DNA of 64,000 bases from Truepera radiovictrix DSM 17093 (GTDB lineage: Bacteria > Deinococcota > Deinococci > Deinococcales > Trueperaceae): assembly GCF_000092425.1 (NCBI RefSeq), contig NC_014221.1:1121001-1185000 (forward strand), read 5' to 3'. Below, in pieces: positions 134 to 55,586 of this stretch. Both the position numbers and the translations under genes were made by a program. Positions within the stretch are counted from its first letter, which is position 1; the number at the start of each line of letters is the position of its first letter. Below the pieces are notes generated by a model, which did no database searches, was not told where the DNA came from, and worked only from the letters and a program-made list of their open reading frames with translations.

Positions 134-139
134 CGTGTC

Positions 140-793
140 CTACCGGTGGCAGATCGAGCAGTTGGCGAGGGCGTCGGCGTTGATGTTGTACGCCTCGACC
201 AGCTGGGCGCCGATCTCGAGCTGATTGGCCGGGTATTCGTAGGCGAGGTTAAAGACCTCTTCGCGCGGGCGGACGTAGCGAGCGGGGTTGCGGTGGCACT
301 CCAAGCACCACCCCATCGTCATCGGCTCCGCTTTCCAGATCGCCGACATCTGGTCGACGCGGCCGTGGCAGTGGTTGCAGCCGATGCCGCTATTGATGTG
401 AGCGCTATGGTTGAAGTAGACGAAGTCGGCGAGTTTGTGCACCCTGTTCCAGGCAATAGGCGTCCCCGTCTCCCAGCTTTCGTACACGGCGGCGAGCTGC
501 GGCGTACCGACGCGGATCTGCGAGTGGCAGGTCATGCAGACCTCAGTGGGCGGGACGTGCGAGTAGGCCGAGACCTCGACGACGTTGTGGCAGTAGCGGC
601 AGTCGATACCGAGCTCGCCGGCGTGCAGCGAGTGCTGAAACCCGACCGGTTGCGCCACGGGTACCCCCACGCGGTTTCGGGAAATGCGCGCGAAGGCGGT
701 CAGTGAGATGACCAGCAAGATGACGAAGATAACACCTCCGATAATCGTCCAGCGGGCGAAGGTGTTGGCGTTCGGGGGGAGAATCTGTGGCAT
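140..793 (-). CDS. actA: Alternative complex III pentaheme cytochrome c subunit A
   Basis: A 217-residue protein with one N-terminal membrane segment (about residues 13-35), then five CxxCH heme sites (CRYCH, CMTCH, CNHCH, CLECH, CSICH). This is the architecture of ActA, the membrane-anchored pentaheme cytochrome of the quinol-oxidising alternative complex III, which passes electrons to downstream cytochromes on the outside of the membrane. The start has an AAGAGGAA ribosome site. The gene is directly followed by actB, supporting the call. A class III multiheme cytochrome of another complex is the only serious alternative. Confidence 0.88.
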   Translation of the reverse strand: MPQILPPNANTFARWTIIGGVIFVILLVISLTAFARISRNRVGVPVAQPVGFQHSLHAGELGIDCRYCHNVVEVSAYSHVPPTEVCMTCHSQIRVGTPQLAAVYESWETGTPIAWNRVHKLADFVYFNHSAHINSGIGCNHCHGRVDQMSAIWKAEPMTMGWCLECHRNPARYVRPREEVFNLAYEYPANQLEIGAQLVEAYNINADALANCSICHR

Positions 794-3364: not shown

Positions 3365-4494
3365 CGCCGCTGCTACCGGGGGCGACCCTCGGGATCCTCG
3401 GGAGCGGTCAGCTCGGCCGCATGTTGGCCCTGGTCGCTAAAAGGATGGGCTACCGCGTGCACGTCTACTCGCCGGACACCGCGACGCCTGCTGGCGAGGT
3501 GGCCGACGAGGAGGTCGCGGCGCCCTACACCGACCTCGACCGCGTCGCCGCTTTTGCCCGAGCGGTCGACGTGGTCACGCTCGAGTTTGAAAACGTCCCC
3601 GCCACGGCGCTCGAGGCCGCCGCCACCTACGCCCCCGTCCGCCCCGGTTGGCGGGCGCTCTACACCGCGCAAAACCGCCTGCGCGAAAAGCAGTTCTGGG
3701 CCAAGCGCGGGCTGCCGCACGCGCCCTTTCGCGTGATCCGCGCGGCTGCCGACCTCGACCTCGCGCTGCGCGAACTCGGAACCCCGGCCGTGCTGAAAAC
3801 GGCGGGTTTCGGTTACGACGGCAAGGGGCAGCGCACCGTGCAGACGCGCCGCGAGGCCGAAGCGGCCTTTGCCGCGTTGGGTGCCGACACGTACGTGTTA
3901 GAGGCCTTTGTCCCCTTCGAGCGCGAGGTGTCGGTCATAGCGGCGCGCCACGAGAGGGGCTTTATGCACTACGGGGTGCTGGAAAACCGGCATCACCGGC
4001 ACATCCTCGACGTCACCTCGGCCCCCGCCGAGGTGAGCGCCGAGGTCGCCGAGACCGCTGTAGCGCTCACCCGCGAGGTCTTCGAGGCGCTCGAGCTCGT
4101 CGGGGTGGCCTGCGTGGAGTTTTTCCTGACTGCGGCGGGGGAGCTTTTAATCAACGAGTTGGCGCCGCGGCCCCACAACTCGGGGCACCTGACGATCGAG
4201 GCGTGCGCCGTGAGCCAGTTCGAGGCGCAGCTGCGCGCGGTCTGCGGGTTGCCCCTCATGCCATCGGCGCCCGTGCGACCCGCCGCGATGGCCAACCTTC
4301 TGGGCGACCTCTGGGCGGGTGGTGAACCGGACTGGGCGGCCGCGCTCGCTTTCCCCGACGTTCACCTGCACCTCTACGGCAAGCGCGAGGCGCGCCCGGG
4401 GCGCAAGATGGGGCACCTCACGGCGCTCGCCGCGACGCCCGCAGCGGCGCGGGAGCGGGTGCTGGCGGCGCGGGCGGCCTTGACGGGCGCCTGA
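3361..4494 (+). CDS. purK: 5-(carboxyamino)imidazole ribonucleotide synthase
   Basis: ATP-grasp enzyme making N5-CAIR from AIR, bicarbonate and ATP, the partner step of PurE. The 377-residue protein begins with [12 protein letters not shown], has the ATP-grasp core with [12 protein letters not shown] (about residues 146-157) and [12 protein letters not shown] near the metal site. The GTG start lies inside the purE stop (GTGA), which fixes it. Length and motifs are normal. Confidence 0.96.
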
Positions 4495-7276: not shown

Positions 7277-7675
7277 GTGATCGCGCTGCCAACCGTTAAC
7301 CAACTCTTGCGCAAAGGGCGCAAAGCCCTGCCGAAGAAAAACAAAGTGCCGGCGCTTAAGGGGAGCCCGCAGCGCCGCGGCGTCTGCACGGTGGTTAAGA
7401 CGCAGACCCCCAAAAAGCCCAACTCGGCGCTCCGCAAAATCGCGCGTGTGCGGCTTTCGCACGGCGCCGAAGTGACCGCGTACATCCCCGGCGAAAAGCA
7501 CAACCTGCAGGAGCACTCGGTGGTGCTGATTCGCGGGGGGCGCGTCAAGGACCTGCCCGGGGTGCGTTACCACATCGTCCGTGGCGCGCTTGACGCTCAA
7601 GGTGTCGGTGTCGGCCGTTACGTACAGCGCAACCAGGGCCGCAGCAAGTACGGCACGAAAAAGCCGAAGAAGTAG
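7277..7675 (+). CDS. rpsL: Ribosomal protein S12
   Basis: Small-subunit protein at the decoding centre. The 132-residue reading carries the canonical [10 protein letters not shown] start region, the KPNSALRK segment (streptomycin-resistance site) and [13 protein letters not shown]. The reported start is GTG 7277, but the only ribosome site, AAGGAG at 7272-7277, overlaps it. The third codon after it, CTG at 7286, is spaced 8 nt from that site and would give the canonical S12 N terminus (Met-Pro-Thr-Val). True initiation is therefore probably at CTG 7286. First gene of the superoperon. Confidence 0.95.
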
Positions 7676-7683
7676 GAGTCAAG

Positions 7684-8154
7684 ATGGGACGCAGAAGAAG
7701 AGCAGAGGTCCGTCGGCTCGAGCCCGACCTGGTCTACAGCGACACCACCGTCACCGCGTTTATCAACAAACTGATGCGCGACGGCAAGAAAAACTTAGCC
7801 AGCCGGATTTTCTACGGCGCTTGCCGGTTGATCCAAGACCGCAGCGGTCAGGAGCCCCTTAAGGTGTTCCGCCAGGGGCTCGACAACGTCCGCCCCCGCA
7901 TCGAGGTCAAAAGCCGCCGCGTCGGTGGGGCGACCTATCAGGTGCCCGTCGAGGTGCCGCCGCGCCGCGCGCAGTCGCTCGCGCTGCGTTGGCTCGTGGC
8001 CGCCTCGAACGCCCGCCCCGAGCGCACGGCAGTCGAGCGCGTCGCCGGTGAACTGCTAGACGCTGCAGCCGGACGCGGCGGCGCCGTAAAGAAAAAAGAC
8101 GACGTCGAGCGGATGGCCGAGGCGAACCGCGCGTACGCCCACTACCGCTGGTAG
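7684..8154 (+). CDS. rpsG: Ribosomal protein S7
   Basis: A 156-residue S7 that nucleates the head of the 30S subunit. It begins [10 protein letters not shown] and carries [12 protein letters not shown] and [11 protein letters not shown], both typical. A TAGGAG ribosome site lies about 6 nt before ATG. It sits 8 nt after rpsL in the str operon. Confidence 0.97.
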
Positions 8155-53420: not shown

Positions 53421-55130
53421 ATGAACCGCAGTAACGTTACCCTTCAGCGGCTACGCGAGCTGTACGTGGAGGGTGAAAACGACGTTATTGTGAAGCTCCT
53501 GACGGCCAAGCGAACCCTGACCCCACGGGAGAGCGTCTACCTCGTGTCGGCGTTTATCAATATCGATAACGACGCCGCTGCCATTCGCTATATCAACGAG
53601 GCGCTGCCTCGAGCCGAGGGGGCGGACAAGGCCGACCTGATCGCCTTAAGCGCTCTTATCGCCTCCGTCAGGGGTGACGAAGACGGTTATTTGCGGCTCT
53701 CCAGGGAGGCGGTGGCGGTTCATGCCACGCCGCTCGCGCTGCATCACCTCGGTCTGGCGCTCCCCGATGTGCGCGAAGGCATCCGCATCCTTCAAGGGGC
53801 TCTGCGCGCGGCCGAAGAGGCGGCTGACGCCTATGCAGAGGCGCGTAGCGCCTACGCCCTCGCCCTCTCGTACCTGCGCATCGGCAGCTTTCGAGAATCG
53901 CTCGGCTGGTCGCACTTCGCCTACACGCGCACCGCGCACCCCGTTTTGAGGCTCGTGGTCCTCAACCTGCGCGCTTACACAAAAATTCTCGTCGAGTCTA
54001 CAGAGGGGCTCGAGGCGCTCCTCAAGGGGACGCTCGACGCGACGGAAAAGACCGCCTACGCCTTTCAGCGAAGGCAGACCCTGACGACGCTCGCCGACCT
54101 CTACCAAGCACAAGGGCGTTACAAAGAGGCACTTGCGCTCTACGAAACCGCGCTAGAGCAGGCGCCGCGCCACCTCTGGGCGATGCTCACTTACGGATGC
54201 GTCAAAGCGCTCCGTGCGCTCGGCCGCCAAAGAGAGGCCGAGGAGCTTGCTGAGACAGCCGTCTCGGTGACCCGAAACTTAGCTTTGTACTACCAAGACT
54301 ACGCTATGTTGGTGTTGGGCGTGTCGCGCTGGCCCTCTGAGGCGGGCGTTCGCTTGTTGGATGAGGTGTATCCGAGGTTGAGTGACATCGTGCTCACGTC
54401 CGAGGCGACGTTCTATCTCGCGGCAGCGGAACAGCTGGGCATGAAGCTGCAAAGAAGCTATGTCGCGCTGGCGCGAGAGCTGCGGCGGCCCCTCACCACG
54501 ACGGGGTTGCGGCTCCTCGCGGGAGAGGCCCTGCCTTACCTCGAGCCGCTATTTGTGGAGGAGCATGCGCTGCGCGTGCACGTTTTAGGTACCTTGGAGG
54601 TCTACCAGCGGGGCAACTTCGTGCGGGTGCGGCAGCGCACCGCAGAGCTGCTCGCACTCCTCCTGCAAGAACCGCGGGGCTACACCGCCGAGGCGCTCAG
54701 CGAAGCGCTCTACGGCACCCTGCAGCTCTCGGCGCTGAGAGTCGAGCTGCACCGCCTCCGCAAAGACCTCGGGCTGACGGTTCACACCCAACCCTACCGC
54801 TTGGGGACGCCGTTGTGGGCGGACGTACTCGAGGTCGGCCAAGCCCTTAATGAGGGGCGCGTCAAAGACGCCGTCGCCCTCTACCGCGGTCCGCTGTTGC
54901 CCACTTCGACCTCTCCGGGGATTACCGAGCTGCGCCGCGGGCTCGAGGCCGAACTCCAGGGGGCGGTGCTCGCCGCGGAGGACGTAGAGCTGTTGTGGTC
55001 GCTCGCGCAGATCATGCCCTACGACCTCGAGCTGTGGGAGGCGCTCAGGGAGAGGCTCCCCAAAAACGACCCTCGCCGCAAGGTGGCGGCGGGTAGAAGC
55101 ACGCGCGTTCGGCACGAGCTCGAGCTTTGA
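53421..55130 (+). CDS. TPR-domain transcriptional regulator with SARP-like C terminus
   Basis: A 569-residue protein. Residues ~20-370 form TPR-like helical repeats (clearest at QRRQTLTTLADLYQAQGRYKEALALYETALEQAP). From ~382 a winged helix of the OmpR/SARP type follows (LRVHVLGTLEVYQRGNFVRV, then RQRTAELLALLLQEPRG and LRVELHRLRKDLG), then a BTAD-like helical segment (about 465-530, GRVKDAVALYRGPLLP, ELRRGLEAELQ). SARPs have this DNA-binding plus BTAD pair at the N terminus; here it is C-terminal with a TPR sensor in front. TACAAT 6 nt before ATG: leaderless. It faces a tiny secreted-peptide gene tail to tail, next to a phased operator array. Confidence 0.85.
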   Translation: MNRSNVTLQRLRELYVEGENDVIVKLLTAKRTLTPRESVYLVSAFINIDNDAAAIRYINEALPRAEGADKADLIALSALIASVRGDEDGYLRLSREAVAVHATPLALHHLGLALPDVREGIRILQGALRAAEEAADAYAEARSAYALALSYLRIGSFRESLGWSHFAYTRTAHPVLRLVVLNLRAYTKILVESTEGLEALLKGTLDATEKTAYAFQRRQTLTTLADLYQAQGRYKEALALYETALEQAPRHLWAMLTYGCVKALRALGRQREAEELAETAVSVTRNLALYYQDYAMLVLGVSRWPSEAGVRLLDEVYPRLSDIVLTSEATFYLAAAEQLGMKLQRSYVALARELRRPLTTTGLRLLAGEALPYLEPLFVEEHALRVHVLGTLEVYQRGNFVRVRQRTAELLALLLQEPRGYTAEALSEALYGTLQLSALRVELHRLRKDLGLTVHTQPYRLGTPLWADVLEVGQALNEGRVKDAVALYRGPLLPTSTSPGITELRRGLEAELQGAVLAAEDVELLWSLAQIMPYDLELWEALRERLPKNDPRRKVAAGRSTRVRHELEL

Positions 55131-55131
55131 C

Positions 55132-55266
55132 TCACCTCAGCAGGGCGTCTTGAATAGGGTTTGGGCACGCGACTCTTCCCGAACCTTTGACCGTCCCGTT
55201 GGCCAAGGCGCCAGCACTGCTGACGACGAGAAAGAGCACCACGGCCCACCGTCGCACATTCCGCAT
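55132..55266 (-). CDS. Small secreted peptide precursor
   Basis: A 44-codon gene. The product starts MRNVRRWAVVLFLVVSSAGA and has a classical signal peptide, with likely cleavage after ALA (residue 22), leaving ~22 residues: NGTVKGSGRVACPNPIQDAL then LR, with one cysteine. ATG 55266 has GGGAGG 8 nt upstream, and TACGCT (55294-55289) is a suitable -10 box 16 nt further up, giving a short normal leader. Four GGTAAC-like repeats on 11-bp spacing lie immediately upstream of that box. The stop lies 1 nt from the regulator's stop. No homologue is known to me; a signal or regulator-controlled peptide is inferred. Confidence 0.6.
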   Translation of the reverse strand: MRNVRRWAVVLFLVVSSAGALANGTVKGSGRVACPNPIQDALLR

Positions 55267-55304
55267 CCCCACATCCTCCCTGCTTTGCAGCGTATGAGGA
55301 CCAC

Positions 55305-55379
55305 GTTACCCGCGCGTTACCTCGGCGTTACCTGCGCGTTACTGGTCTGATCCTGCCCCTCGGGTAAGGGGGAGGTAAT
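55305..55379. promoter_or_regulatory. Phased GTTACC operator array
   Basis: GTTACC occurs at 55305, 55316 and 55327 and GTTACT at 55338, exactly 11 bp apart. Opposite-strand copies GGTAAG at 55363 and GGTAAT at 55374 are also 11 bp apart. Read on the minus strand, the last repeat ends 10 nt before the -10 box of the small peptide gene. Direct repeats on 11-bp spacing just ahead of a -10 box are the known layout of SARP-regulated promoters, matching the SARP-like regulator next door. Confidence 0.7.
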
Positions 55380-55586
55380 CGGGGGGCGCTAAGGTGGCGG
55401 TGGCTTGACAAGCCTAGTGGGGGTAAAGAGTAGACTTCTCGGTTCGGCTGCTCTGATTCGACCTCACCGCACAGATCATACTCTCTCAGAGGAGGCTATT
55501 TTGGATTATTTAAATTAAGTAGTTTTTTCGTGCAGCTCTCCTAACCATAGGCGCTTGTGAAATAAGCTGGAAAGAGAGGCGAAGAA

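Follow-up and report, generated by a model that had tools for sequence, protein, structure and literature searches.

A candidate peptide-pheromone cassette with a SARP-type activator in Truepera radiovictrix and its relatives

An exported-peptide gene and its promoter region

The window, i.e., the stretch of 64,000 nucleotides from Truepera radiovictrix that was analyzed, harbors a 44-codon open reading frame (ORF) on the minus strand, whose stop lies 1 bp from that of a convergent regulator gene (Table 1). A sequence-only reading had proposed a secreted peptide with a textbook signal peptide, a good ribosome site and a -10 box, and all three were located. The signal is of the Sec type, with three Arg within residues 1–6, a core of hydrophobic residues and ALA immediately preceding residue 23, signal-peptide calls being made by heuristic rules. 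The mature part of ~22 residues with a single cysteine agreed with the translation and stands as a prediction. The dedicated operator described below and the same placement in many relatives also favor a secreted product, and a real, small, exported peptide appears to be the best reading of the ORF.

A generic sigma-70 scan detected no -35/-10 pair upstream of the ORF, which fits an activator-dependent promoter devoid of a -35 element. Pfam and NCBIfam gave no match for the peptide. A direct search of 61 genomes returned the self match only, with no orthologue in the 60 relatives; the 30 non-self rows (E 0.028–0.81) corresponded to other genes or frames, the best being at chance level.

Table 1. 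Features of the peptide locus and genomic positions of the composite promoters
Feature	Position	Strand	Remarks
Regulator, 569 aa, putative peptide receptor and activator	53421..55130	+	Pfam TPR matches, AlphaFold2 model, fold matches
Exported-peptide gene, 44 aa	55132..55266	-	ATG start; translation MRNVRRWAVVLFLVVSSAGALANGTVKGSGRVACPNPIQDALLR
Signal peptide, residues 1–22, MRNVRRWAVVLFLVVSSAGALA	55201..55266	-	Translation and heuristic scan; cleavage predicted after ALA
Predicted mature peptide, 22 aa, one Cys, NGTVKGSGRVACPNPIQDALLR	55135..55200	-	Cleavage site inferred
Shine-Dalgarno GGAGG	55275..55279	-	8 nt before ATG; from sequence
-10 box TACGCT of peptide gene	55289..55294	-	TAnnnT type; from sequence; part of composite promoter 1
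Operator, four heptamers (three GGTAACG, one AGTAACG)	55304..55343	-	11-bp period; last heptamer 9 bp from -10
Mirrored operator half, GGTAAG and GGTAAT	55363..55379	+	11-bp period; faces lipoprotein gene
-10 box TAAGGT of divergent promoter	55390..55395	+	Spacing equal to peptide side
Lipoprotein, 549 aa	55587..57236	+	Lipobox LNAC by eye; no match in Pfam/NCBIfam
Composite promoter 1	55289-55321	-	Window peptide gene
Composite promoter 2	55363-55395	+	Mirror image ~40 bp away; faces 549-aa lipoprotein gene
Composite promoter 3	genome 1462270-1462302		Peptide gene of own paralogue
Composite promoter 4	genome 2628916-2628948 (L194)		Before lipoprotein-like gene

Repeat search of the peptide promoter revealed direct-repeat spacings of 11 and 11, and the period-11 score of the operator was reached by none of 300 randomised sequences. 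The exact motif GGTAACN5GGTAAC occurs twice in the genome, both times at this promoter; with one mismatch allowed, 13 sites were found, five of which lie at the window peptide promoter and at the secreted-peptide gene of a paralogous regulator. The composite promoter (heptamers plus -10, at most one mismatch) was found at four places in 3.26 Mb, against none for the reversed control; the expected numbers are 0.006 for exact sites and 0.32 for those with one mismatch. The peptide gene is likely under the control of the convergent regulator, judging from this arrangement, and the 549-aa lipoprotein is likely a second target, given the promoter that faces it. The gene behind the fourth promoter is a probable distant member of the regulon.

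In the available text on SARP targets, the repeat spacing is 11 or 22 bp, and 8 bp separate the 3′ repeat from the -10 box (PMC10936776); the PimR operator is described as three heptamers with 4-nt spacers (PMC5930380). The direct repeats near the -10 box in the window are spaced in the same manner and form a predicted binding site, the heptamer-to-10 gap being 9–10 bp, with heptamer boundaries set by the analyst, as against 8 bp in the published targets. The paralogous locus (L089, region 1462249) encodes on the minus strand a 39-aa secreted peptide, MVKKIVTLGLICLSLSTFAFARPGNGGGDVCRTSVSSTR, with an operator of like type; it lies ~650 bp downstream of the paralogous regulator on the same strand. 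The lipoprotein leader (55488-55518, plus strand) contains a AGAGGAGG stretch and, after it, a TTG ORF of five codons, which could be a leader peptide or chance.

Domain organization of the convergent regulator

The AlphaFold2 model of the regulator (pLDDT 90.6, 17-row alignment) showed a TPR superhelix (residues 8–380), a winged HTH (wHTH, 384–461) and a helical BTAD-like region (468–566), of which Pfam called the TPRs only, leaving BTAD and Trans_reg_C uncalled. The top VIA match of the TPR part was MalT domain III (Z 23.8, 317 residues, 4.2 Å), and the best fourteen rows included the Rap-pheromone, Rap-CSF, RapF-PhrF and NprR-NprX complexes interspersed with eukaryotic TPR proteins. Rap, NprR and AimR scored Z 20–23, a range in which generic TPRs score alike, so that the values are evidence of fold only; many eukaryotic TPRs are also among the matches, which counts against the peptide-receptor reading. 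The 50 best Foldseek rows for the whole regulator contained only TPR proteins, the great majority of them eukaryotic.

Modeled by themselves, the C-terminal 195 residues gave a pLDDT of 94.9, and Foldseek placed the AfsR SARP domain in transcription complexes on its operator, the afs box (8hvr, 8k60), first, followed by EmbR, these being the sole matches with E < 0.001. Sequence search of this part against PDB chains listed OmpR-type response regulators weakly, with AfsR and EmbR absent from the list. As the C-terminal domain folds like the AfsR SARP domain and EmbR and lies behind a TPR superhelix, the regulator is modeled as a SARP-type protein with the domain order reversed (SARP part at residues 384–566 of 569). 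The OmpR-type wHTH followed by a BTA domain, typical of SARPs, is recognizable through AfsR and EmbR, whereas the N-terminal position of the SARP domain in published members is not shared.

RRNPP receptors carry an N-terminal HTH, except that Rap is without a DNA-binding domain. The regulator resembles the RRNPP(A) proteins in its TPR-type peptide-binding superhelix, at the level of fold, and in the adjacent exported-propeptide gene. An N-terminal HTH of the RRNPP type was absent, the DNA-binding domain being the C-terminal SARP-type wHTH with the BTAD-like bundle. The regulator thus falls outside RRNPP, as its DNA-binding domain comes from another family. One scan of the genome contigs with the window regulator as query returned no match.

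Peptides, operators and cargo genes in related genomes

Regulator homologues were gathered from overlapping sets of 41, 39 and 111 genomes. They occur in Trueperaceae, Thermus, Meiothermus and Calidithermus, with loci in Thermus composti, T. scotoductus, T. igniterrae, Meiothermus granaticius, M. luteus, Calidithermus chliarophilus and a Truepera MAG, among others. Three of the 103 distinct homologues that reach the C terminus were dropped for short 3′ sequence. The remaining 100 were compared by one fixed rule (a signal-peptide-like ATG ORF) with 474 other genes, each 200 aa or longer, from the same stretches and the window. A convergent ORF with a signal peptide was found at the 3′ end of 34 of the 100 regulators, which do not represent 34 independent events as many rows are close orthologues and one (L099, part of a longer membrane-protein-like frame) is to be discounted, and at 5 of the 474 controls, three of which (L093-L095) are homologous internal starts. 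Two or more operator heptamers lay 60–300 nt past the stop for 31 regulators and one control, and both features occurred together for 25 regulators. The excess of convergent ORFs over the controls argues that the window ORF is more than chance.

The 66 homologues that failed the peptide filter are mostly ~820-aa forms. Among them, rows L163, L158, L159, L112 and L119 do have a peptide that the filter missed; L114 is at a contig end, and a stop codon occurs towards the end of the L115 regulator. In a tree of 99 rows (33 with peptide), the peptide label required 15 changes against 27.9 for shuffled labels. The window regulator belongs to a supported clade (98/97) of 39 rows, 26 of them scored with a peptide and 13 without, five of the latter showing one on a relaxed look. 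No convergent peptide was detected at the closest full-length regulator (L090, G013, 40%). Past the stop of that regulator, operator-like heptamers and a -10 box precede a same-strand gene. No convergent signal-peptide ORF was found beside related domains at 13 Streptomyces loci and one actinomycetote MAG locus, with a filter that also demands a Shine-Dalgarno sequence and misses most Thermus and Meiothermus peptides.

Upstream of 24 of the 34 peptides, a heptamer is followed after 9–10 nt by (T/C)AnnnT (shuffled mean 0.16), three of the matches (L154, L171, L186) falling not on the last heptamer but on an internal one, 70 nt away from the ATG. In 19 of these 24 loci, the -10 box ends exactly 6 nt before the ATG, so the messages would be leaderless. 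Fewer than two heptamers of the window type lie upstream of nine of the 34 peptides, including L086, L087, L066, L080 and L184. With the period-11/22 score, no operator was picked up at L086, L066, L080 and L184, and the ~20-21-bp operators of L149 and L163 also went unrecovered. In seven Thermaceae genomes, the spaced-heptamer pattern performed no better than its reversed control and was not used as evidence; either the pattern is too loose or its spacing is wrong for genus g20.

The Thermus-type peptides share the motif ACWxPxCxPP and the Meiothermus-type peptides ACxxPxCxPP, and the mature parts outside these genera have no common motif. The selection test was done on these relatives of the window ORF: nine Meiothermus-type genes gave a pN/pS of 0.51 outside the regulator overlap and 0.45 in the mature part, indicating purifying selection on the Meiothermus-type peptides.

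The divergent genes across the operator vary between loci while the peptide gene keeps its position at the regulator 3′ end. The divergent operons often encode transporters or RiPP machinery, the latter in the form of radical SAM/SPASM enzymes (L161, L164) or of LanKC accompanied by precursors of its own (L168). MFS and C39-like proteins are encoded at L163, ABC-type genes lie at L151 and L154, and MacB/FtsX at L087. At L066, a radical SAM gene is located on the peptide's own strand, not divergently, and the peptide starts at its end. The same gene order was observed on the Thermus thermophilus plasmid pTTJL1802, where a regulator annotated as hypothetical is followed by radical SAM and MFS genes and no CDS is listed at the peptide position. 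The earlier remark that gene callers usually leave such a place empty was checked on two T. thermophilus plasmids, where no CDS is listed over the peptide in a gene table that is incomplete per PLSDB.

The Calidithermus chliarophilus locus L168 (G071:C8) encodes a class III lanthionine synthetase, LanKC (NCBIfam lanthi_synth_III above cut-off). Two small ORFs in its divergent unit, at +351..462 and +556..673 from the regulator stop, have an ILALQKL leader and Ser/Thr/Cys-rich ends, and the convergent peptide is free of Cys beyond the signal peptide; the likely RiPP precursors at this locus are therefore encoded by genes other than that of the convergent peptide. We know of no description of this class III lanthipeptide-type cluster. 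At L149 (genome G082, 7455-7862), a 136-aa secreted Cys-rich protein (EPECCCQQQTP) is encoded divergently, directly across the operator. At L178, the operator-proximal block is apparently duplicated (similar ORF readings at +135..456 and +3758..4181 from the regulator stop) before other genes, and it seems as if cargo had been added via promoter copying.

A proposed pheromone loop, its rivals and comparable systems

Beyond the earlier claim of an exported peptide, the analysis adds three elements: a SARP-TPR regulator encoded convergently, an operator made of heptamers and a second target on the divergent side. These parts, together with a variable cargo and autoregulated divergent promoters, fit a pheromone loop, and the window ORF is read, with a probability of about 0.6, as encoding the propeptide in a cassette for a peptide pheromone. 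The propeptide would be exported by Sec and trimmed to ~22 residues or less, and the mature peptide would probably be re-imported through an oligopeptide ABC transporter, the T. radiovictrix genome containing 12 SBP_bac_5 binding proteins. The TPR superhelix of the convergent regulator would then bind it, allowing the C-terminal SARP domains to occupy adjacent heptamers of the 11-bp array and to activate, rather than repress, two divergent promoters: that of the peptide gene, giving a positive feedback presumably dependent on cell density, and that of a cargo gene or operon, here the 549-aa lipoprotein. The computed gene and signal peptide, the operator and its genome-wide rarity, the domain folds and the conserved architecture are the basis of this proposal. 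Counting against it are the 66 of 100 homologues that failed the peptide filter, the nine peptides with fewer than two upstream heptamers, the missing common motif in mature parts beyond Thermus and Meiothermus, the closest full-length regulator with its operator-like heptamers and no convergent peptide, the eukaryotic TPRs among the fold matches, and the reported response of AfsR to ATP and phosphorylation.

The same parts suit an unlikely but serious alternative, in which the SARP-TPR regulator senses something else and the peptide is its output, acting outside the cell as an antimicrobial, surface or metal-binding effector. The peptide gene does look like an operator target, the conserved Cys-Pro core of the Thermus and Meiothermus peptides could be structural, and the L066 peptide begins right at the end of a same-strand radical SAM gene. 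Against this alternative stand the fixed place of the peptide at the regulator 3′ end while the cargo varies, and a TPR domain close to the Rap, NprR and AimR peptide receptors. It is considerably less probable that the peptide is a RiPP precursor or the substrate of neighboring radical SAM or LanKC enzymes, as the enzymes at L161, L164, L066 and L168 might suggest. Its Sec-type signal speaks against this, no radical SAM or LanKC-type maturase was found among the window neighbors scanned, and the separate precursor ORFs at L168, where the convergent peptide lacks Cys after its signal, disfavor it there and argue for a non-precursor role of the convergent peptide; the class III-like leader and modifiable core seen at L168 belong to the other ORFs.

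All members have a single hydrophobic segment near the N terminus, as would a product that stays in the membrane, i.e., a small membrane protein or a hydrophobic toxin-like peptide tuning the regulator or the cell. With recurring AxA-type cleavage sites and C-terminal parts that are hydrophilic or rich in Pro, Gly or Cys, this explanation is very improbable. The missing orthologue in the 60 relatives would suit a chance ORF, which is nevertheless extremely improbable in view of the pairing with regulators, the rarity of the composite promoter, the promoters of the related peptides and the purifying selection on them.

The pheromone reading may be extended, with the balance tipping slightly in its favor, to a peptide quorum sensing proper to Deinococcota, based on a SARP activator with a TPR receptor, a convergent secreted peptide and a portable cassette for variable cargo, often RiPP clusters, which would be autoregulated via heptamer operators with an 11-bp or ~20-22-bp period. 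The peptide-regulator pair resembles a previously undescribed cassette for chemical communication in Thermus-related bacteria. Should the pheromone reading hold, peptides serve as signals in Thermus, Meiothermus, Calidithermus and Truepera and are read through a family of activators familiar from the regulation of antibiotics in Streptomyces; these signals offer a handle on silent RiPP clusters, and peptide sensing may be the role of the TPR domains in large SARP proteins. As transformation of Thermus thermophilus is easy, the pheromone idea is directly testable. The open-licence literature searched named no SARP-peptide pair or Deinococcota pheromone, and apart from a reported Thermotoga case, a 2018 survey, in its available text, found no thermophile with complete peptide-based quorum sensing (PMC6022435).

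By analogy, the cassette is best read as working like the convergent Rgg/SHP or TprA/PhrA systems, with an unrelated activator and in another phylum. The Rgg DNA-binding domain is an N-terminal HTH. The SARP-TPR regulator differs in its C-terminal SARP domain and heptamers of 11-bp or ~20-22-bp period, and the streptococcal Rgg/SHP system belongs to a different phylum. The Rgg/SHP group III and RaS-RiPP loci of streptococci, as described in the accessible part of the source, are similar in having a small peptide gene convergent with and overlapping the regulator 3′ end and, for the RaS-RiPP loci, radical SAM RiPP operons as targets (PMC13361665). In pneumococcal TprA2/PhrA2, an RRNPP-type regulator and an exported peptide likewise control a lanthipeptide cluster, according to the available text (PMC5436883), but TprA2 is a repressor relieved by the peptide, whereas SARP-type activation is predicted here.

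The large Streptomyces SARPs AfsR and PimR share the SARP fold, the direct-repeat operators and the control of natural-product genes, and AfsR also has a TPR domain; unlike in the present regulator, where it is C-terminal behind the TPRs, the SARP domain of AfsR is N-terminal and accompanied by a NOD. AfsR is reported to respond to ATP and phosphorylation, and the accessible parts of the sources name no peptide ligand for AfsR (PMC10936776) or PimR. The best VIA match, MalT (Z 23.8 as above), is comparable in its TPR-type sensor domain. MalT also has its DNA-binding domain at the C terminus; it differs in that this domain is a LuxR-type HTH and that its ligands are maltotriose and ATP.
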